IMG/VR virus record: IMGVR_UViG_3300046007_008245 | Location: 1 to 40,785 of that record | Source of the DNA: a virus | DNA: 40,785 bases | Strand: one strand, 5' to 3' | Part shown: positions 10,688 to 40,785 of the stretch, piece after piece | How positions within the stretch are numbered: position 1 is the first letter of the stretch | How the letters are laid out: each line of letters opens with the position of its first letter | Notes under the pieces: generated by a model | Seen by the model: the letters and a program-made list of their open reading frames with translations, nothing else | Databases searched by the model: none | What the model was told of the DNA's origin: nothing | Made by a program: the position numbers and the translations under genes

Positions 10688-12043
10688 CTAAGTTGACAAA
10701 TAAACTGCTACAATGTTTGTGTTTGTATCGACATAACTGGTACCAGTTCCAGTTACTTTTTTAGCTTGTAATTTTGCTGTTTTTGGTTGCCCAGTTACGT
10801 TTATAATCCAACTGCGACTTCCAGTAGATCTTAAAAATATAGTTGAAGCAGTTCCCATGCGGATCAAACCACTTTGTGCGACGCCGTCATAAACCAACTG
10901 CCCCTGAATATCATCATCGTTCAGCGTTTTTGTTCCATCTACGTTGCAATTAATTAACCATTTTCCATTTTTATTTAGACTCACAGACACGCCGGCAACA
11001 TCCGCAAAGGTTGTCGTTAGCGTGAGCAAAGAGCTACAATTAGCATTTAGTTCGCTATTTGTATCTACGCCAGGCAGCGATCCTGTAATTGTTCCAGAGA
11101 AGTCAATATCAACGGCCCACAGCTTTTTAACTCGTTTTGCTGAAGAACCTATGTCTACGGTGTTATTAACAAAAGGAACAAAATTACCAGTAGCTAGTAT
11201 CTCCCATCGACCATCCGTCACGCCGGAAGCATTCGTGGTAATGAACAGGAACTTACCAGCTACTGAGCTACCACTAGGAATTGCTTCTACTTCACATTGA
11301 ATATAACAGGCATTTCTAAAGCTACCGCCATTATACCCTCGGAAAGCTACAATTCCTAAGAAATCTCCGACAGCCACATCCGCTGGAGTTGCTATGGTTC
11401 CACGACCGCGACTAAAAAATTGTCTGACTGCCCCACTCGCCGTAGTGCCAAAAAAATTACCGCTAAAATTGGGATTAGTAGTTTGCCCCGTTAGATTAAT
11501 AGAAGTCCCTGCCCAAATGGTGTTCCATCGCAGCGAAGTATTACCGAGGTCTCCAGCGTTATCAGTCAATGGAATAATGCTTTTATCTAAGCATAACCCA
11601 ATACCAGGGTCTATAAAAGCCCTATAGTTAAGTGCTGGAGTTACACTATCTAACCAACGAATTTGATAGTTTGGGTCTGAGCCGCCAATCGGATTGTCAA
11701 ATCCTACGTTAGTTTTCCATTGCCTAAGGCCATCGGCAGTGTAAAACCAACCATCAACTAAGCGTAGGGATCTAGCGAATCTAACTTCTTCATAGAACAA
11801 ATGAATTAATCGGTGTATGATTTGCCCTTCACTTGGCGTAGCGTCAATGTCGGTAAGATCAAATTGCGAGGTGTTTGTTAAAATCTCTTGACGAATTACT
11901 TGCGTACTTTGCGAGCGTTTTATAAGCGCCCGCACCTCGTCCAATGAAACACCGCTTTGCAAACTGCGAGAAGCGACTTGGTCTAAACGGCGTTCTATGG
12001 AGTTTATTGCTAGCTCTGCGTCCCTAAGAGTTTTTACGATCAT
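10688..12043 (-). CDS. Tail fibre / receptor-binding-like protein, 451 aa
   Basis: The N-terminal ~90 residues are helical. The middle carries two copies of the LG-x3-RW-x3-W motif common in phage tail fibres (DLGNTSLRWNTIWAGTSI and DIGSSAKRVKKLWAVDIDF). The C-terminal ~125 residues form a beta-sandwich-like domain (TTTFADVAGVSVSLNKNGKW... KTAKLQAKKVTG). These motifs are typical of trimeric fibre shafts with a terminal binding head. The start overlaps the hub gene stop as ATGA. Lacks an S74 chaperone domain that I can see. Likely a host-contact protein in addition to the tailspike. Confidence 0.65.
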   Translation of the reverse strand: MIVKTLRDAELAINSIERRLDQVASRSLQSGVSLDEVRALIKRSQSTQVIRQEILTNTSQFDLTDIDATPSEGQIIHRLIHLFYEEVRFARSLRLVDGWFYTADGLRQWKTNVGFDNPIGGSDPNYQIRWLDSVTPALNYRAFIDPGIGLCLDKSIIPLTDNAGDLGNTSLRWNTIWAGTSINLTGQTTNPNFSGNFFGTTASGAVRQFFSRGRGTIATPADVAVGDFLGIVAFRGYNGGSFRNACYIQCEVEAIPSGSSVAGKFLFITTNASGVTDGRWEILATGNFVPFVNNTVDIGSSAKRVKKLWAVDIDFSGTITGSLPGVDTNSELNANCSSLLTLTTTFADVAGVSVSLNKNGKWLINCNVDGTKTLNDDDIQGQLVYDGVAQSGLIRMGTASTIFLRSTGSRSWIINVTGQPKTAKLQAKKVTGTGTSYVDTNTNIVAVYLST

Positions 12044-27083: not shown

Positions 27084-28575
27084 AATGTTTATTAAAATAT
27101 CCTGATTTGTGTAACGCTTTTACCATTTTACGAGCATAGCCCATAGTTCCTGGCTCGTACTTTTTGCGAGGCTCTTTCAAACCTAATGCGTGCGACGCGA
27201 CGTAATAACGAAGCGGATCGTATGCATGATCAGGCACTTTTTTGTCGCGTTCATCGGAAAAAATTGACTTTCCGTTGATAGTATCTAACAAATCACGTTT
27301 TTGCGCTCGAATTTGATAGATAACGTGCTCGACGCCGTCAGAATGCGCACTCGATTTCGCGATAAATAACAACTTCGAACAGCCAATGTCCCCAGTGAAG
27401 GGATTTTTTAACGATGGATCTTTACGAAGCCATTCATTTATGCGATTTCTCGTCGCAAATTCGTTGTTATCGGCCGGATTCCACGCAATTCGCGGCGCGT
27501 CAATGGATGGGTCTACGTATTCGTCCGCAACGCACCAAAAACCACCATGCTTTTGCGACGCTTTCTTAAAAATCGCCGGATCAGCTAAGTTATTTATGTA
27601 GGTTTCGCCCTCACTTAACGCCGAAATTGCACGTCGGTGATGACTAATTAATTGTCCTGGCGAATAGTACTCTCGATAACATACGTGAACTCCCCCAAAA
27701 ACTCCAAACCACAAACAACATGTAGGAGCACTATCGCCATGGTCCATAGCGCGATATAAAGCAGCTTTGGATAAGAAATTTTTAAGCTGTTCTTTAGAAA
27801 CATGAAGCACCGATTCAGGGGGAACGATGTGAATTGAACCTTCGCCAACTCCCCATTTACCTTGAAAAAATCGCGCAACCCATTCGGGATCGCGCGACTT
27901 CATTTGTTCAATAGTATCTGGCGTATACATTGATTCGTCGGTACCCCGCTCGACGTAATCATGTGTACGGTGAAATTTTTCTTTCCACTCAGGCGAATCT
28001 GGATGATATCGACGCCATACCCAGTGAAATTCCACGTCTGGGTTAACAAGTATCATCATGTAACTTGGCGCTTGCGGCCGCCCCAAGGAATCGCGAGGAT
28101 AATCCGGTGTTAGCAGATGCTCTGGAATCTTTGCTTGATCCCAACGCCCGATACGAGCATCCAAAGTTAAATAAACACTTTCGTCAATTTCTTCAGCCTG
28201 ATCTATTAAAACTGAATTAATTTCTAGGCCACGAAGCGACATTTCGTTCACTTCGTCTAAATGCATCCACAAAATAGAAGAGCCATTCTTGAAGATCGTG
28301 ATGCCGTCGATCTCAGAATGGCGCTCTATAAATTCTGATTTTTTACCCTCTGGCAACAATTTGAAGAACGTTGCCATTGTTGTAGATTTAAGCGACTTGA
28401 AAGTCTTACGGGCGATTACGCTTCGATACCCAGGGAACGTCAGGGAGAGGAGTAAGATTTTCTGACATCCTGTATATGATTTGCCGTTGCCATAACCGCC
28501 CGAAAAACACGAATTACGTTTAGTGAAGTTAAAAAAAGTTTCTTGCGCTTCGTTTCTAAACGTAATGTTAAGCAC
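27070..28575 (-). CDS. Terminase large subunit, 501 aa, GTG start
   Basis: DNA-packaging motor. Walker A is GGYGNGKS (residues 26-33); the Walker B strand is SVLIDQAEEI, with D125 and the catalytic-type E128/E129, but Q126 where E is common. The C-terminal nuclease shows RAMDHGDSAPTCCLWFG, and DHAYDPLRYYVAS with the final acidic residue. GTG 28575 has GGAGG at a 7-8-nt spacing supplied by a 22-bp repeat element (28584-28605) shared with the gene at 35817. It overlaps the portal gene. Confidence 0.9.
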   Translation of the reverse strand: MLNITFRNEAQETFFNFTKRNSCFSGGYGNGKSYTGCQKILLLSLTFPGYRSVIARKTFKSLKSTTMATFFKLLPEGKKSEFIERHSEIDGITIFKNGSSILWMHLDEVNEMSLRGLEINSVLIDQAEEIDESVYLTLDARIGRWDQAKIPEHLLTPDYPRDSLGRPQAPSYMMILVNPDVEFHWVWRRYHPDSPEWKEKFHRTHDYVERGTDESMYTPDTIEQMKSRDPEWVARFFQGKWGVGEGSIHIVPPESVLHVSKEQLKNFLSKAALYRAMDHGDSAPTCCLWFGVFGGVHVCYREYYSPGQLISHHRRAISALSEGETYINNLADPAIFKKASQKHGGFWCVADEYVDPSIDAPRIAWNPADNNEFATRNRINEWLRKDPSLKNPFTGDIGCSKLLFIAKSSAHSDGVEHVIYQIRAQKRDLLDTINGKSIFSDERDKKVPDHAYDPLRYYVASHALGLKEPRKKYEPGTMGYARKMVKALHKSGYFNKHYGQG

Positions 28576-28583
28576 TTGTGGGC

Positions 28584-28605
28584 CTCCGCTCGCTTCGCTC
28601 GCTAC
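28584..28605 (-). repeat. 22-bp SD-bearing element, copy 1
   Basis: On the minus strand this reads GTAGCGAGCGAAGCGAGCGG followed by AG, built of a direct repeat AGCGAGCG. It includes the TAG stop of the upstream gene (28602-28604) and supplies the GGAG of the terminase ribosome site. It matches 35787-35808 on the plus strand at 21 of 22 positions. Confidence 0.85.
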
Positions 28606-29027
28606 GAAACGAACAGTTTTTTGAGTTCGGCTTCGGCAGCTTTTGCGACGGCTGGAATGTTAAGAATGTTTTGACCAAAAACGCCGAGAGTGTTGTAAAT
28701 AGAACGAACAACTTCCGTTTTTGGAGTTTTGTCGAGGAAGATAGCGACTTCTGCAAGCCCGTGATAATTACCATTGTAGAACAAGACGTAAATTAGTTCA
28801 GATTTATCAGAGGGGTCCGGAAGTACGAAACCTGCCGGTCCAAGCCCTTCTTGGTTAACGTACACTTCTCCGTAAATTCCCAAATTATTTAGGACTTGCA
28901 TTACGACCATTGCTTGATCGTAAGTAATTGTAGTTTTGCGGCGATCTGGACCGGGCGCGAAACCAGTTTCTTGCGAATCCGTAAAGACGTTATCCCTAAG
29001 GACGTTATCTACAATGACTTTACTCAT
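28602..29027 (-). CDS. Hypothetical protein, 141 aa
   Basis: Start at ATG 29027 (MSKVIVDNVLRDN), with AAGGA 8 nt upstream; an ATG three codons earlier is less well placed. Soluble, mixed alpha/beta (ELIYVLFYNGNYHGLAEVAI), C-terminal helix rich in Ala/Lys. It sits directly before TerL, a position often taken by small subunits or packaging accessories, but no HTH is visible. Function unknown. Confidence 0.65.
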   Translation of the reverse strand: MSKVIVDNVLRDNVFTDSQETGFAPGPDRRKTTITYDQAMVVMQVLNNLGIYGEVYVNQEGLGPAGFVLPDPSDKSELIYVLFYNGNYHGLAEVAIFLDKTPKTEVVRSIYNTLGVFGQNILNIPAVAKAAEAELKKLFVS

Positions 29028-29178
29028 TTTTTGCATCCTTAGCTAAAATTAGTCCAAGGCCAGCAATAACGATGGCCAAATCCTCGGGAGATGTAGCAAT
29101 CTGCGCGAGTTGTCGCTGAGAAATTACCGAAACAATTGCTGCGATTCCAGCAAAAGTAGAACGCCAATTTTTAATCAT
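29020..29178 (-). CDS. Small membrane protein, holin-like, 52 aa
   Basis: ATG 29178 has AGGAG at a 7-nt spacing, better than an upstream in-frame ATG at 29211. Sequence MIKNWRSTFAGIAAIVSVIS carries one hydrophobic segment, and LAIVIAGLGLILA near the C-terminus a second; both ends are charged. Short proteins of this type (two hydrophobic segments, charged tail) occur in phages as holins or holin-like proteins. It overlaps both neighbours by 8 bases. Holin function is inferred. Confidence 0.6.
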   Translation of the reverse strand: MIKNWRSTFAGIAAIVSVISQRQLAQIATSPEDLAIVIAGLGLILAKDAKNE

Positions 29179-29404
29179 TTGAATTCTCCTTGCGTTTGAT
29201 AATTTCTTCAAGATCGACCGCGAATGGTCCTACATGAATGTAGCGAAGACGAAACGTTTCGCAGTATTTTTTACCAATTTCAATCGCTTGTTCTAGGCTA
29301 TTAGCATAGAACGTTACGGTTTGAACGGTTTGCTTATTGTAGCGTAGTGTAAAAATTTCTCGTTCTTGAGAAGTCGTGGGTTGTGCAGGAGTTGGATTAG
29401 CCAT
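29171..29404 (-). CDS. Hypothetical protein, 77 aa
   Basis: Starts at ATG 29404 with AAGGCG 7 nt upstream. The first 15 residues are P/T/Q-rich; the rest has a compact alpha/beta pattern (EIFTLRYNKQTVQTVTFYAN, EQAIEIGKKYCETFRLRYIH). No known motif. It overlaps the previous gene by 8 bases and the next by 8 bases, as expected in a coupled operon. Confidence 0.65.
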   Translation of the reverse strand: MANPTPAQPTTSQEREIFTLRYNKQTVQTVTFYANSLEQAIEIGKKYCETFRLRYIHVGPFAVDLEEIIKRKENSND

Positions 29405-29762
29405 TTGTTCGCCTTGGGTTAAAGATTGCTCCGAGATTTACTTTATCAGAGCTTACAACCACTTGCAAAGTTTGTTGCGGAGTAGGTTGATTAAATTGTG
29501 CGCCGTGAAGTTCAAGAACTTTTAACGCTGCGGTCATACGGACATTGTCTTTCGCTTCGTTCATTACGTTAACGAGCGTTCTAACGGCATTGCGGGTAGT
29601 TCCACCAGCGCGATTTAGTTGCTTACGTACCTTGGTGTTAACGGAATCGCGTTCTTCAGCTTCTTCAATTATATTAGCAGCTTCGAACGGCGCAACTTTT
29701 TCAAGTGAACTTAGATCGTGTACAACTTCCGCGTCGTAATTATCTGCTGATAGGATCGGCAT
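29397..29762 (-). CDS. Hypothetical protein, possible terminase small subunit, 121 aa
   Basis: A helical middle (RNAVRTLVNVMNEAKDNVRM, TAALKVLELHG) is followed by a short extended C-terminal tail with beta character (TLQVVVSSDKVNLGAIF). This arrangement, with helices for DNA binding and a C-terminal strand, and its place a few genes before TerL, resemble small terminase subunits. No classical HTH is clear, so this is a tentative call. SD weak. Confidence 0.5.
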   Translation of the reverse strand: MPILSADNYDAEVVHDLSSLEKVAPFEAANIIEEAEERDSVNTKVRKQLNRAGGTTRNAVRTLVNVMNEAKDNVRMTAALKVLELHGAQFNQPTPQQTLQVVVSSDKVNLGAIFNPRRTNG

Positions 29763-29833
29763 AGCTTTGTAACCGCTTCTGTAGAGGAGAATTTTCTAAT
29801 CGAGTTCGCGCAACGTTTTCGTCGCGAAAAATC

Positions 29834-30088
29834 TCATTTCGATGCTTCAAGGTTGGATACACGACGATCGAGGTATTTAAGCTCTGCTGGGATTGTTCCA
29901 AGGATTTTTTCATTTTGTAACTCTCGGTTTCGTAACTCTTTTATCTCTTGCTTCAACTCTTGAACGTGCGTAACAGTTAACTCTAACTTGCTATGAATTA
30001 GTGAGAACGCGCTGACGATGGTTCCAATCGTCGTTATTATTTGTACCCAAACAGCGAAGGGTATGCCCGCGAATTTAAGGTCATTCAT
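29834..30088 (-). CDS. Membrane-anchored coiled-coil protein, possible spanin/holin, 84 aa
   Basis: First gene of the leftward block. One transmembrane segment at residues ~10-32 (IPFAVWVQIITTIGTIVSAF) is followed by a charged coiled coil (ELTVTHVQELKQEIKELRNR) to the end. This N-in single-pass topology with a long helix is that of inner-membrane spanin subunits, though small phage membrane proteins of other function look similar. No overlapping outer spanin (lipobox) was found. GGGGAG is only 2 nt from the ATG. Confidence 0.55.
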   Translation of the reverse strand: MNDLKFAGIPFAVWVQIITTIGTIVSAFSLIHSKLELTVTHVQELKQEIKELRNRELQNEKILGTIPAELKYLDRRVSNLEASK

Positions 30089-30361
30089 CGCTCCCCGATC
30101 GCCCTTAGGTTAGCACGTTGTGGATCGCGGCGCAATAGGAATTTTATCTTTGTTTTCAACGATTTTGAATTTTGTGCTTGGGACTCTCCGGTGGGGTATA
30201 TACTTAATAGTTTTTCGTTCCCTATTTTACATTTGTATTTATGTGTTTGTTTGTTTGGAGTTTGGAATTTGTTTATTTGTTTTTTTTTGTTCGTTTGTGC
30301 GTGCGTGGGTTTACTATAAGGCTACAGATGCCGGGTCCCATCCAAATTGGGGGATGTCCGG

Positions 30362-30475
30362 TCTATCGTACTACACGTTCTATACGTACTATAGCTATCG
30401 GAAGTACTATACGTACTATACGTACTAGGAATAGTACTAATGAGAGTACTATACGTAACCGAAGTACTATACGTA
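30362..30475. repeat. Degenerate 9-bp minisatellite, unit CTATACGTA
   Basis: Five exact copies of CTATACGTA start at 30380, 30407, 30416, 30449 and 30467. Between them are degenerate units (CTACACGTT, CTATAGCTA, CTAGGAATA, ACCGAAGTA) mostly in the same 9-bp register. The unit contains the palindrome TACGTA. Possible binding array for an initiator or regulator. Confidence 0.85.
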
Positions 30476-30592
30476 CCATGCTAGCGAGAATGGCACGATA
30501 AATGCATATAGCAAATAAATGGCCAATGATAATGATATACCAATATCAATGGACCGTGACGTGCTATGTGCAATCGCATGACCAAAGGCAAT

Positions 30593-30671
<79 letters not shown>

Positions 30672-30710
30672 CGTACAAACCGCTGAATGCAACTCCACAA
30701 ACCTACTTAC

Positions 30711-30724
30711 GTTCCACGTGGAAC
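30711..30724. promoter_or_regulatory. parS-like palindrome
   Basis: GTTCCACGTGGAAC is a perfect 14-bp palindrome, flanked by C and A. It matches the core of bacterial chromosomal parS sites (consensus TGTTNCACGTGAAACA; many sites carry GTTCCAC/GTGGAAC half-sites). A further half-site GTGGAAC is at 30800-30806. No ParB gene is visible in this genome. Confidence 0.65.
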
Positions 30725-30960
30725 AGTCAGAAACACGCGACGATAACGATAATGATAACGCAATATCAACAACAAAAAGCGAACAAACGACGAATAAAGG
30801 TGGAACAAACGGCGAATCGCCTTCAGTGACGCTAAAATCAATTTTAGTTTGCAATTTAGTGGCCAATCGCGCGTATTGCGTCGAAAGGGGATGGGGCATG
30901 GTGAGATAGCGCAAGCGGAAAGCGATCGCAGGACGGGCCGTTTGCACGCGATTGTGACCA

Positions 30961-30991
30961 TGTGGAAATGTTGTGGAAATGTTGTGGAAAA
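30961..30991. repeat. Tandem TTGTGGAAATG repeat
   Basis: Three near-identical 11-bp units, TGTGGAAATG, TTGTGGAAATG and TTGTGGAAAAG, lie in tandem just upstream of the third 22-bp iteron. The GTGGAA core resembles the parS half-site but lacks its last C. Confidence 0.75.
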
Positions 30992-31111
30992 GTACCTTGA
31001 TAATGATAACGCAATATCAATAAGCGGTCGGAGCGATGCGTATATAATAATGATGCGCCGGAGACATTGGCGAAAGTTATGAGGGTATAAAAACTATTCA
31101 TATACTTAACG

Positions 31112-31156
31112 AAAAAAAAAAAAAAACTTGCATCACGGGATGGATAGTGTTAATCT
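31112..31156 (+). promoter_or_regulatory. Candidate early promoter with A-tract UP element
   Basis: A run of 15 A (31112-31126) lies directly upstream of TTGCAT (31128-31133), 17 bases, then TAATCT (31151-31156). Each hexamer matches the sigma70 consensus at about four of six positions with ideal spacing. The A-tract would act as an UP element. It is the only clear promoter for the rightward block's first gene at 31178. Confidence 0.55.
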
Positions 31157-31177
31157 AGTTTCAGTGAGGGACAACCC

Positions 31178-31354
31178 ATGAAAATCGTGATTAGAAAAAA
31201 CAACCGCGCGGAAAGCTACATCGCCACGCTAGACCTACCACTTATGCAACAGCACCATGCGAAGTACCTTTGTACAGAGATAAATCTGCTACTCTGGACT
31301 CTAACGCAAGAGGGATTGACCTCTTGCTTCGCCAAGCTTGAGGAAGGGGAATAA
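31178..31354 (+). CDS. Hypothetical early protein, 58 aa
   Basis: First gene of the rightward block. GAGGG lies 8 nt before ATG 31178. The protein starts MKIVIRKNNRAESYIATLDL and has a helical middle (MQQHHAKYLCTEINLLLWTL). Its TAA overlaps the next ATG by one base. Small first-expressed phage proteins are often host-takeover factors, but nothing here identifies a target. Confidence 0.65.
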   Translation: MKIVIRKNNRAESYIATLDLPLMQQHHAKYLCTEINLLLWTLTQEGLTSCFAKLEEGE

Positions 31355-31539
31355 TGACACCACTTCAGGACATTTTGCAGTACACTTTCAAAAAGTACGG
31401 GATAGAGTACTCTTTCGCTTTAGTTGCAGCGATCGAGTATGGAGTAAAATTAGATCCTGAAAAAGTAAGGAAAGCGTACGGTAGCTGGGCTGTCACGGGA
31501 TTGCGAAAACTTGAAGAACAATTGACAAAGGGAGAATAA
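31354..31539 (+). CDS. Hypothetical early protein, 61 aa
   Basis: Helical small protein (MTPLQDILQYTFKKYGIEYS ... VRKAYGSWAVTGLRKLEEQL). Joined to the previous gene by TAATG; GAGGAAGGGG provides the ribosome site. Not recognised. Likely cotranscribed with its neighbours from the promoter near 31150. Confidence 0.65.
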   Translation: MTPLQDILQYTFKKYGIEYSFALVAAIEYGVKLDPEKVRKAYGSWAVTGLRKLEEQLTKGE

Positions 31540-31540
31540 A

Positions 31541-31783
31541 ATGAGTAGGAACTTTTATCATGTAAGCGATGAGCACATCGCTATCATGACTGAAGCGCAG
31601 TATCAGCGCTGGTATCACGGGGAGTTGACCGCTGAGGATATGGATACCATATCGATATACGGGCCGTTAGTGCACAACGGCAAGCGATTGATGGTCGAGG
31701 TGTCATTGACCGCTGCTTTCGGTATCGAAGAATGGCAAGAGTGCTGGTGGAAGACTCCAGTATTCGGATGGGCGGGACGCTAG
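31541..31783 (+). CDS. Hypothetical early protein, 80 aa
   Basis: Starts MSRNFYHVSDEHIAIMTEAQ, one base after the previous stop, with GGGAG upstream. Tryptophan-rich C-terminus (EEWQECWWKTPVFGWAGR). Not recognised. It ends the first small rightward cluster; the next gene has its own promoter. Confidence 0.65.
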   Translation: MSRNFYHVSDEHIAIMTEAQYQRWYHGELTAEDMDTISIYGPLVHNGKRLMVEVSLTAAFGIEEWQECWWKTPVFGWAGR

Positions 31784-31803
31784 AAAAAAAGTTTCGAGGG
31801 GGA

Positions 31804-31855
31804 TTGACAAGCAAACGACAATCCCCCATAATCAAAGAGTACCCACAAGGTACTC
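31804..31855 (+). promoter_or_regulatory. Strong sigma70 promoter followed by a hairpin
   Basis: TTGACA (31804-31809), 17-bp spacer, CATAAT (31827-31832): eleven of twelve consensus bases. GAGTACC (31837-31843) pairs with GGTACTC (31849-31855) around a 5-nt loop, at or just after the expected start of transcription. The hairpin could protect the mRNA 5' end or be an operator. Confidence 0.85.
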
Positions 31856-31880
31856 CAAACCAAACCAAAAGGATAACCAT

Positions 31881-32345
31881 ATGAAGATCAATAGCATTGA
31901 AGTCAGCCGCAAGGTTGACACCATTTTCGGTAAGCAAGTCGAGAAGACTGCTACCGTAGCCTTCCCGGTTTTTGAGTCGGTGGAAGACCTTTCTAACCGT
32001 TACTCGGAGGAAGCTCTTGTAGCTCTTGTGAATTTCAGTGTCCGTTTGCTGGCACAGCGCCAAGCTAACAATGACCTGAAAGGCGCATCGTCGGGCCTTT
32101 CCGAGTCCGATGCGGCTTCAGTGAAACAAATTCTCCGTTTCGTGAATCAGGCTCGCGAGTTGGACGAAGATCCAATTGCCGCGGCCGAGAAAATCCTCTC
32201 GAAACCGAAGTTTTCCCACTTGCGTGCGATTTTCGAGGGTAGCGGGAGTGGCAAGGTTTCCCTTGACTACAGCGGTACTGAGATGGTTGACGGTGCCGAG
32301 TTGCCCATTCTCCGAGCACCCAAGGAACGCGGGGGTGAGGAATAA
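31881..32345 (+). CDS. Hypothetical protein, strongly expressed single-gene unit, 154 aa
   Basis: Not recognised. It begins MKINSIEVSRKVDTIFGKQV, with an AAGGAT ribosome site. A first beta-like segment (EKTATVAFPVFESVEDLSN) is followed by helices (LVALVNFSVRLLAQRQANND, ASVKQILRFVNQARELD) and a loop-rich C-terminus with GSGSGKVSLDYSG, which looks P-loop-like but lacks the spacing of a true Walker A. It has its own near-consensus promoter and a strong terminator, so it is a monocistronic, probably abundant early protein. Possible roles are DNA binding or host inhibition; these are guesses. Confidence 0.75.
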   Translation: MKINSIEVSRKVDTIFGKQVEKTATVAFPVFESVEDLSNRYSEEALVALVNFSVRLLAQRQANNDLKGASSGLSESDAASVKQILRFVNQARELDEDPIAAAEKILSKPKFSHLRAIFEGSGSGKVSLDYSGTEMVDGAELPILRAPKERGGEE

Positions 32346-32377
32346 CAATCCCCTAGCTAAGTAGTTTTTCGTGCCAT

Positions 32378-32407
32378 AAACCCCCGATTCGTCGGGGGTT
32401 TCTTGCG
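32378..32407 (+). terminator. Strong rho-independent terminator
   Basis: AAACCCCCGA (32378-32387) and TCGGGGGTTT (32392-32401) form a perfect 10-bp stem with a TTCG tetraloop, followed by CTTGCGTTT. It ends the monocistronic unit of the 154-aa gene. Confidence 0.85.
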
Positions 32408-33054
32408 TTTAAGGAACCGGCGCTTATTGATAATGCGTTCTCATCATCGCCCCGCCCTTGCGACTAGTCCGCCCATCCCCAGCAATCCCCTCCAATCCCC
32501 TCCAATCGCCCTACGCTGGCCTGCAAGCGATTCCCGCCCGCCAAAGGTACCCTAGCATACCCCGCAACATCGACGCGCTATAGGTCATTGTACAAGGCCC
32601 GTGGAGCGATCGATACCCTTTCCGATACACTGATACTATCCAATATCCCACAATCGATTCTAGGCCCGTTCCAGCACCAAGAAACACATATCCCAACGCG
32701 CAACTCCCACAAGCTACCGCTACCAGCTACCGCGGATCCACTCCCTCTGCACCCTCAAGTACCTTTGAATCGCCAAGTAAAATCACCGTGTCAAGTAAAA
32801 AAAGCTGCAAAAACACATTTTAATCCAATAATGCAATTAGTTATTAAGGATGTTACTGAAGAGATTTGGAATCCAAACGGGAACCAAGCCGCGAATAGTC
32901 CCCAGTCGAGCCATACCTAATCCAGAAAAGGGGATGAGATGTTTAGCGCAACTCCCTTTGGAATCAATCCTTTGGAGCGAATAAGACTCTGCTATCCCCT
33001 AGCCTAGCGGGGTAACACCATGGGTAGGTATGTCTGCAAGGGGAGAGTTGATAC

Positions 33055-33182
33055 TTCCTTACCAGAAAAAAGGATTAAGGAAGTGGTAGTATAAGAGATT
33101 AATATATTAAAATATATGAATATATATATAACTAAAAAAACAAGTACTTCTACTATACTTAACTTTTTTTACTGGTAAGGAA
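33055..33182. repeat. Inverted repeat flanking an AT-rich segment
   Basis: TTCCTTACCAG (33055-33065) is the exact reverse complement of CTGGTAAGGAA (33172-33182), each followed inward by an A or T run. Between them, 33098-33133 is almost purely A/T (ATATATTAAAATATATG, ATATATATATAAC). The layout fits a DNA-unwinding element or an operator pair. Confidence 0.75.
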
Positions 33183-33261
33183 CTCTCATTTGCAGCTACC
33201 TCGCACCCATACCCATGCCGTGACCTCCCGAGGATAGGGGGTAACAGCTACCCTATCCCGC

Positions 33262-33286
33262 TAACCCCTTGATTCCAGAGGGGTTA
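33262..33286. promoter_or_regulatory. Hairpin TAACCCC/GGGGTTA
   Basis: A perfect 7-bp stem (33262-33268 with 33280-33286) and an 11-nt loop, about 30 bp upstream of the -35 box at 33315. No U-run follows; it could be an operator or terminator remnant. Confidence 0.45.
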
Positions 33287-33314
33287 AGCCAAACAATCTT
33301 CCCCCTTTTTAGGC

Positions 33315-33343
33315 TTGACTATGGATTGACCCAGGACTATACT
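33315..33343 (+). promoter_or_regulatory. Sigma70 promoter for the 253-aa and helicase genes
   Basis: TTGACT (33315-33320), 17-bp spacer, TATACT (33338-33343), ten of twelve consensus bases. The gene starts at 33390, giving a short leader of about 40 nt. Confidence 0.8.
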
Positions 33344-33389
33344 AGTAGGTGCCGATACTCCAAACCTAGAGAGACACTATAACCTACTT

Positions 33390-34151
33390 ATGAGACTATG
33401 TGAATTCAACGAATGTGAAGGGGAAACCATCCCATTCTCTAAGTATTGTAAAACTCATCACGATAATATAGTGAGTGAGATGAAACGAGTCCGTAAAGAA
33501 AACTCGCAGAAAGAAGAAATAGAGCGCAAGCACGATTTTAGTACGCTTAAAGAAGCAAATATAGCAGGCCATATTCGTTCAATTCGCTTAGAGATAGGCG
33601 ATAGCGTACGTATTGACGGTGAACAATTAGCTGCTAACATGCTTGGCGCAATGCCAACACTAAATCAAGCGGATAGACTTAAAATTATTATGTCTGCTCA
33701 AGATATGATGCAACATAATTTTAAGGAAAAACCAGAGTTGCTAGAGTTACTTGCAATTGAGCAGTTTTTCCAAACGTGTTTAGAGATTAGCAAATCTCTA
33801 GTACAACTCAAGAAAACTAAACTGGGCATTCAAACTAAGGATGCAATTATTAAGGCTAGCGTCGAATCGAAAGAACGGGAGCGTAAGGTTAAAACCAAGC
33901 AATCACTAGACAACATCAAAGTAACCAAAGGCAATGGAGAAAAGGTATTCTCCCACACTGCACTCGATTTAGTTAAGGATGTTTTCTACGTTAGCGAAGC
34001 ATTGGATAAAGATTCAGCCAAGCTAATGAAAAAGCTATGTGATCGCATCCTAGTTTCAAGTGAACTGGATGCGTTAGATAAAGCTACAATGGTCGAATTG
34101 TTCAATAAACCATTGTTTGTTCCATTAAAGAAGTTTATCACGTTCAAATAA
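33390..34151 (+). CDS. Hypothetical protein with N-terminal zinc-knuckle, 253 aa
   Basis: N-terminal residues hold C4, C9, C20, H23 and H24 (MRLCEFNECEGETIPFSKYC then KTHH), a C-x4-C-x10-C-x2-HH arrangement that can bind zinc and is seen in phage proteins with HNH-like or zinc-ribbon starts. The remainder is helical and rich in Lys/Glu (SVESKERERKVKTKQSLDNI), with no nuclease motif. It is transcribed from the promoter at 33315 and ends before a terminator. A DNA- or host-protein-binding role is possible; not identified. Confidence 0.75.
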   Translation: MRLCEFNECEGETIPFSKYCKTHHDNIVSEMKRVRKENSQKEEIERKHDFSTLKEANIAGHIRSIRLEIGDSVRIDGEQLAANMLGAMPTLNQADRLKIIMSAQDMMQHNFKEKPELLELLAIEQFFQTCLEISKSLVQLKKTKLGIQTKDAIIKASVESKERERKVKTKQSLDNIKVTKGNGEKVFSHTALDLVKDVFYVSEALDKDSAKLMKKLCDRILVSSELDALDKATMVELFNKPLFVPLKKFITFK

Positions 34152-35991: not shown

Positions 35992-36025
35992 TTTACATTT
36001 GTTGTGGATTCAATTGAGGTTATTT

Positions 36026-36454
36026 ATGCAAACATTTCTTCCATTCTCTGATTTTGAAGCATCGCTCATGACGCTAGATTATCGTCGCCTAGGTAAACAA
36101 CGCGTCGAAGCATTGCAAATTATTAACTCGCTAGTCGATCCGAATTATGGTTACAAACATCATCCGGTGAAAGCTATGTGGGAAGATTTTATTCCTGCGC
36201 TTAAGTATTATTGTAACCTTTCCATTTTACTATGGGAATCCAAAGGTTACCAAAATAATATGATGTTGTATGACGTCCCAGAGACTGTGGAAATTCCATA
36301 TTTCTCGGCGGAATTATACCTCTCGCATCGCTCCAATCTTATTCGCAAAAACCCATTGCATTATAGTAAGTTTTTTCCTGGTACTCCAGACAATTTACCA
36401 TATGAATGGGTCAAACCAATCGCATCTTACAAAATCAAAACGAGGTTATATTAA
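36026..36454 (+). CDS. Pyrimidine-dimer glycosylase-like / MSMEG_6728-family protein, 142 aa
   Basis: Start ATG 36026 with GAGG 7 nt upstream (MQTFLPFSDFEASL). The N-terminus with LDYRRLGKQRVEALQIINSL and HHPVKAMWEDFIPALKYYCN matches the family annotated as MSMEG_6728 or Pyr_excise, related to T4 endonuclease V. Members carry RxLGKQR-E and HP-x2-MW signatures, both visible. The family is presumed to act in DNA repair of UV damage, but most members are uncharacterised. The stop overlaps the next ATG (TAATG). Confidence 0.7.
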   Translation: MQTFLPFSDFEASLMTLDYRRLGKQRVEALQIINSLVDPNYGYKHHPVKAMWEDFIPALKYYCNLSILLWESKGYQNNMMLYDVPETVEIPYFSAELYLSHRSNLIRKNPLHYSKFFPGTPDNLPYEWVKPIASYKIKTRLY

Positions 36455-40601: not shown

Positions 40602-40785
40602 ATGCCTATTCTGAACATTACGCAAGAAGATACTAACAGACTGAAGAAGGTTGATCGCGGCTGGTACCTCAGCGAGATTACCAACGTCACCGCCAAGCAG
40701 AGCAAGAAAGGCGGCTTGAACTTTACCTACGAGTTCAAAGTTGTTGACGAAAACACGCCGATGAATGGTCGCTATGGTTACCGGT
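40602..40785 (+). CDS. Putative ssDNA-binding protein, DUF669-like (5' part)
   Basis: ATG 40602 is preceded by AAAAAGGAAAACAATTAAA, a usable SD at a longer spacing. The frame is open to the window end and continues without change at base 1 (see 1-345). The first 19 codons (MPILNITQEDTNRLKKVDR) are unique to this end; the rest duplicates the left terminus. Confidence 0.6.
   Translation, partial: MPILNITQEDTNRLKKVDRGWYLSEITNVTAKQSKKGGLNFTYEFKVVDENTPMNGRYGYR
40659..40784. repeat. Terminal direct repeat, right copy
   Basis: Matches bases 1-126 exactly; see the left copy. Closing the map removes this overlap and restores a single intact SSB-like gene. Confidence 0.9.

Follow-up and report, generated by a model that had tools for sequence, protein, structure and literature searches.

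Results

Organization of the Genome and the Divergent Control Region

The window, i.e., the whole stretch of DNA analyzed here, comprises the 40,785 bases of a virus record (IMG/VR IMGVR_UViG_3300046007_008245). The record is classed as linear, yet bases 1–126 are duplicated at 40659–40784. Because its ends repeat each other, it probably represents a complete circular genome of about 40.66 kb. A leftward gene block extends from 30088 to 6594 and includes PHROGs matches to the terminase, the major head protein and a tail fibre. A rightward block extends from 31178 via the end of the record to 6309, and its PHROGs matches are a helicase, an exonuclease, a Sak4-like annealing protein, a DNA polymerase and a primase. 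This replication block also contains a match to a pyrimidine dimer DNA glycosylase at 35999–36451 (PF03013, E 2.2e-16). No tRNA was found in the window.

The two blocks are separated by 1,089 bases without any supported gene, in which short overlapping ORFs are present, none of them with a family match. The palindrome under study had been predicted to lie within a non-coding control region, and it is indeed located in this region between the divergent blocks. The features are compiled in Table 1.

Table 1. Features of the control region (positions in the window).
Feature	Position	Strand	Remarks
Divergent non-coding control region	30089..31177	.	Leftward structural versus rightward replication block; PHROGs matches on either side
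25-nt repeat, copy 1	30528..30552	+	Starts with GATAATGATA; diverged, 76%
parS-type palindrome GTTCCACGTGGAAC	30711..30724	.	With flanks CGTTCCACGTGGAACA
25-nt repeat, copy 2	30748..30772	+	GATAATGATAACGCAATATCAACAA; 23 bp from the palindrome
GTGGAAC half-parS	30800..30806	-	L003 reads GGGGAAC
11-bp tandem repeat TGTGGAAATGT	30961..30990	-	2.7 copies; DnaA-box-like; possible origin element
25-nt repeat, copy 3	30999..31023	+	96%

A Palindrome With the Core of Chromosomal parS Sites

It was verified that GTTCCACGTGGAAC is a perfect 14-bp palindrome at the predicted position. It is one of four perfect palindromes of at least 14 bp in the window (the other three begin at 10735, 24485 and 37148), and it holds the window's only CACGTG. 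Comparison with the 16-bp parS palindrome tGTTNCACGTGNAACa revealed identity at 14 of 14 core positions and at 15 of 16 positions of the full site, with an intact CACGTG core. The single mismatch between CGTTCCACGTGGAACA and a perfect 16-bp parS is at the outermost base. With Markov models the exact 14-mer GTTCCACGTGGAAC is expected 0.9e-4 to 1.9e-4 times per 40.8 kb, and the relaxed form GTTNCACGTGNAAC 0.0024 times per window. When up to three mismatches were allowed, two matches were found in the window versus a shuffle mean of 1.21, which is not unusual. It is only the exact match that is remarkable, because looser matching yields ordinary counts.

The 14-bp core is the same as that of the P. 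aeruginosa sites parS1 to parS4, in agreement with the original prediction of a putative chromosomal-type parS. Through parS, a short DNA address, most bacteria segregate their chromosomes. In a study on P. aeruginosa, parS2 and parS3 have the sequence TGTTCCACGTGGAACA, while parS1 and parS4 carry one outermost mismatch and show slightly weaker binding (PMC4368675). The mismatch in the window is at the same position as in parS1 and parS4, but the base is different. In contrast to the chromosomal sites of P. aeruginosa, the window site is on a phage, in a single copy and without a parAB operon.

Conservation in Related Viruses

The one close relative that spans the control region is L003 (IMG/VR 3300044678_001816). 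It carries the perfect 16-bp parS TGTTCCACGTGGAACA at the same place, in a region that is 92% identical, and is thus identical to parS2 and parS3 of P. aeruginosa over 16 bp. Changes between L003 and the window are present on both sides of the 14-bp core, the core itself is unchanged, and the flanks in L003 complete the 16-bp parS. Taken alone, the unchanged 14-mer is weak evidence, because it comes from the comparison with a single relative that is about 92% identical. Two further IMG/VR contigs, L002 and L005, are nearly identical to the window and end before the site.

A second virus, L004, has a terminase that is 85% identical and a homologous control region of 537 nt. The palindrome is absent from it, and the best 14-mer has six mismatches. 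In a search over the full length of 38 records with related terminases, GTTNCACGTGNAAC was found in L003 only and was absent from L004 and 36 others; seven of the 38 exceed 40 kb, most are fragments, and many may miss the region. Among 83 related loci (0.995 Mb) the site was detected in only two, both from the L003 contig, and six control patterns had no match in the same loci. Absence of the palindrome from close relatives would have spoken against the original prediction. The outcome was mixed, as the site is present in L003 and missing from L004 and 36 more records, mostly fragments. The missing palindrome in the searched relatives beyond L003 indicates that one lineage gained the site or that others lost it.

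This distribution bears on the explanation that the palindrome arose by chance or is a neutral relic left by a captured piece of host DNA, which would fit its absence from L004 and from the more distantly related records that were searched. Against this stand the expectation of about 1e-4 occurrences per genome and the observation that the core was kept in L003 while both sides changed. Including the database results described below, chance or a neutral relic is considered quite unlikely.

Repeats and Half-Sites Around the Palindrome

A GTGGAAC half-site downstream of the palindrome had also been predicted. Such a half-site does exist (Table 1), but it could not be upheld as a part of the site, as it is lost in L003 and as the window contains 12 such matches in total, the two arms of the palindrome included. 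Half-sites were therefore not counted as belonging to the feature. The "GTGGAA motifs further on" of the original prediction turned out to be the 11-bp tandem repeat, which resembles DnaA boxes and not ParB half-sites. On the reverse strand it reads ATTTCCACA, ATTTCCACA and TTTTCCACA, and the third copy is degenerate in L003.

The core GATAATGATA of the 25-nt repeat is present in three copies each in the window, in L003 and in L004 (at 158, 199 and 231 of L004). The control region of L004 is otherwise diverged, yet the three cores remain. The GATAATGATA repeat is likely a control or origin element of the phage itself. The repeat and the palindrome are separable, since L004 has only the core of the former.

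Further repeats were observed in the control region. The 9-bp repeats CTATACGTA are located in 30363–30480, with 7.3 copies at 30363–30427 and more after these, and they are nearly the same in L003. A GA-repeat tract (18.5 units, 30593–30629) and an ACACA tract (30646–30672) lie near each other, and the length of the GA tract differs in L003.

The location between divergent gene blocks and beside three copies of the 25-nt repeat would also be compatible with an operator at which a regulator encoded by the phage controls the divergent promoters, in which case the identity with parS would be coincidental. However, the palindrome occurs once and does not form an operator set, it matches a bacterial centromere motif exactly, and L004 contains the repeat core without it. 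Together with the large excess of parS, but not of rearranged palindromes, across phage records of many genera (see below), this makes an operator quite unlikely.

Partition and Integration Genes

The absence of a visible ParB or ParA had been claimed, and this holds for the models applied: PF02195 (ParB_N), PF17762 (HTH_ParB) and PF13614 (AAA_31, ParA-type) yielded no match in the window at E values up to 10. The same models detected their families in 11, 14 and 14 of 14 control genomes, respectively. The integrase model PF00589 did not match in the window either. The scan with PHROGs or Pfam covered 49 of the 60 called ORFs, and no integrase, repressor or partition family was found among these. 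By these models, the window does not contain a self-contained ParABS partition system, i.e., parB and parA on the same replicon. Instead, it exhibits the sequence features of the phi29 type, namely a parS on the phage together with no match to a phage ParB and no match to an integrase.

parS Sites in Viral Sequences of IMG/VR

The 16-bp form TGTTCCACGTGGAACA was found in at least 120 IMG/VR stretches, versus one stretch for the rearranged palindrome TTGTCCACGTGGACAA, the one control palindrome that was run. The follow-up comprised 80 of the at least 120 stretches. ParB_N (PF02195, E up to 0.001) was detected in one of these 80 listed records, some of which are fragments. About half to three fifths of the sites in the 80 listed loci fall inside called ORFs. 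Nevertheless, 31 of the first sites per locus were not wholly within an ORF of at least 60 aa, versus 9.9 expected at random positions, and with a limit of 100 aa the numbers were 38 versus 17.8. This excess outside ORFs argues against chance or a neutral relic.

The site itself does not name the host of the window phage, because bacteria of many phyla use the 16-bp parS; it was found in at least 116 bacterial genome stretches from many phyla (80 listed). A blastn search of window positions 28000–34000 against phages yielded no match, and a terminase profile search of genome contigs yielded no relative.

parS Sites in Phage Records of INPHARED

The INPHARED collection of 50,697 records, which includes uncultured ones, was searched for exact 16-bp matches with N-padded 30-base blastn queries. 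Single matches have an E value of 8 and are not significant, so that the weight lies on the comparison with control palindromes. Two control palindromes were found in 0 and 0 records, and a uniform model predicts about 0.5 record per palindrome (2.3 billion bases). In contrast, TGTTCCACGTGGAACA (the C/C form) was present in 58 records, with Pseudomonas first (17). TGTTTCACGTGAAACA (the T/T form) was present in 286 records, including phages of Listeria (87), Microbacterium (49), Arthrobacter (29) and Gordonia (25), and TGTTCCACGTGAAACA in 147 records, including phi29 and phages of Pseudomonas (36), Arthrobacter (28) and Bacillus (24). These are redundant counts of records (GenBank plus RefSeq, duplicates and close relatives) and not of independent gains, and the genus counts for TGTTTCACGTGAAACA and TGTTCCACGTGAAACA were drawn from the top ten genera.

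All 58 rows were inspected for TGTTCCACGTGGAACA, 60 plus a spread of 60 from the 286 for TGTTTCACGTGAAACA, and 60 of the 147 for TGTTCCACGTGAAACA. The form of the site tends to follow the host, with exceptions both ways. The C/C form was found in Microbacterium phage Tyrumbra and Psychrobacillus phage Perkons, and the T/T form in Vibrio phage phi 3 and Roseobacter phage DSS3P8. Among the annotated TGTTCCACGTGGAACA rows, 28 of 49 sites are outside annotated features, and for the annotated Pseudomonas rows this is true for 14 of 16. A check of 12 phage records for ParB_N revealed one match above the cut-off (Stenotrophomonas phage BUCTxx99, at two places) and two weak sub-threshold matches. A PF02195 match was absent from phi29, XD2 and phiPsa374.

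Klebsiella phages account for 10 of the 58 TGTTCCACGTGGAACA rows. Eight of their sites are inside an annotated gene, and the other two records have no annotation. The Enterobacteriaceae are reported to lack chromosomal par genes (PMC7022226). Some parS occurrences thus need another cause, because Klebsiella phages carry sites although their host family is reported to lack chromosomal par, and this speaks against the reading as a site for host ParB. The eight sites inside genes are in favor of chance or a neutral relic.

Several sites are located in or near a terminal repeat or a genome end. Among the matches listed, the site of phiPsa374 is at 389–404 (of 98287) in the DTR; Vibrio phage phi 3 carries one in its left terminal repeat, and further sites near an end are at 71019 of 73752 in Gordonia phage Woes and at 294 of 107173 in vB_PpS_SYP. 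Such parS sites at the ends may be on the DNA that enters first. Microviridae/gokushoviruses with genomes of about 5 kb also carry an exact 16-bp parS, often outside annotated genes.

Contamination with host chromosomes was considered as a source of the IMG/VR matches. It is possible for single contigs, but it fails for phages with named laboratory hosts, and the parS-bearing phages include ones with the hosts P. putida KT2440, B. subtilis, Gordonia terrae 3612 and Arthrobacter ATCC 21022.

Discussion

Host ParB as the Probable Ligand

Taken together, the palindrome in the control region is probably a genuine parS, i.e., a loading site for the chromosomal ParB of the host, on a phage that has no recognizable ParB of its own. 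The original prediction had proposed that the site may recruit host ParB, and the frequency of parS in phages and the analogy to phi29 make this the best reading of the sequence. Upon infection, dimers of host ParB would clamp onto the phage DNA at the site in a CTP-dependent manner. They would then spread across the control region and link the phage DNA to ParA and the nucleoid, and perhaps to SMC. The phage genome could thereby be kept positioned and be inherited by both daughter cells if lysis is slow or deferred, and a damping of the divergent promoters might be a side effect. By analogy, we infer that positioning or partition during a slow or deferred infection would be the benefit for the phage. 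Titration of host ParB is an unlikely purpose, reasoning from the presence of one site per genome.

Precedents

One of the closest precedents is the Bacillus phage phi29, with its relatives PZA and B103. Spo0A suspends the lytic cycle of this virulent phage, and Spo0J, the ParB of the host, entraps its chromosome in the spore, as described in a report (PMC9437464, citing Meijer et al., 2005). Like the window, phi29 has a parS-type sequence, in its case an exact one, and no PF02195 match. It is described as virulent, with Spo0J acting on its genome (PMC9437464). Unlike in the window, the inspected site of phi29 is inside gene 10, and the host is a sporulating bacterium. The site of the window is of the C/C type, occurs once and is located in a control region, and no relation of the window to phi29 was detected.

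A mobile element that uses the partition system of another replicon has also been described. SGI1 exploits the ParABS system of IncC plasmids through captured copies of parS, and this is reported to stabilize the element (PMC10954446). As proposed for the window, a parS on a mobile element is combined with the ParB and ParA of another replicon; in the case of SGI1, however, these are a plasmid-type parS and a plasmid ParABS and not a chromosomal system. Centromere or ParB functions on phage genomes are reported for the mycobacteriophages RedRock and Miko and the Stenotrophomonas phages DLP3 and DLP5 (PMC7157519, PMC7326821). These phage-plasmids form prophages and have genes for ParB or ParB-domain proteins, joined by one for ParA in RedRock and Miko. 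In contrast, the window has neither such a match nor an integrase match.

The behavior of a parS-carrying phage lambda in the presence of CFP-ParB has been studied with a parS/ParB pair that is reportedly of the P1 type. In that study, CFP-ParB gathers within ten minutes of infection, and replication and lysis still occur with CFP-ParB bound (PMC13190303). This case shows that ParB can load on phage DNA as it enters a cell, and that an infection is not necessarily blocked by it.

Host ParB and Gene Control

Host ParB could alternatively be recruited mainly for gene control, i.e., to silence or tune the divergent promoters by spreading from the site and to couple lysis to the cell cycle of the host. 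This overlaps with the preferred explanation of a parS that loads host ParB, and the degrees of confidence given here are not exclusive. The location of the site within a divergent control region would fit such a role, and phages that co-opt host regulators of the cell cycle or of sporulation (CtrA, Spo0A) for lytic deferment have been reported (PMC9437464). However, lambda replicated and lysed with CFP-ParB bound, and in two other phages the site is not in a comparable location: that of KPP25 is flanked by structural genes, and that of phi29 lies within gene 10. Moreover, when 25 half-parS sites of P. aeruginosa were changed, no dominant effect on neighboring transcription is reported in the study, which concerned half-sites and not full parS (PMC10419367). 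A role mainly in gene control thus appears unlikely, albeit with an appreciable residual chance.

Wider Occurrence and Significance

For the whole group of phages, the capture of a host centromere site by phages without ParB seems slightly favored as a widespread and repeatedly evolved strategy. The window phage would be one instance of it, and host ParB would serve as a general handle to position, protect or carry over DNA. This joint reading would span phages of Pseudomonas, Stenotrophomonas, Listeria, Arthrobacter and Gordonia as well as Microviridae, far beyond the spore-formers. It would include that the form of the site tends to follow the parS of the host, and that sites frequently lie close to a genome end or outside genes. 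A survey of parS sites of the host type on phages lacking ParB was not found in the literature searched, which consisted mostly of sources other than subscription papers and bioRxiv preprints. The phi29 case is known already, while the breadth across phages of non-sporulating hosts seems to be new.

The idea that host ParB acts on such phages is testable, because laboratory hosts are available for several of those listed. Should host ParB load on such phages, the chromosome segregation machinery would be a common host factor of phages and not a speciality of phi29 in spores. If true, this could account for the persistence of phages that have neither integrase nor partition genes while their hosts divide or starve.
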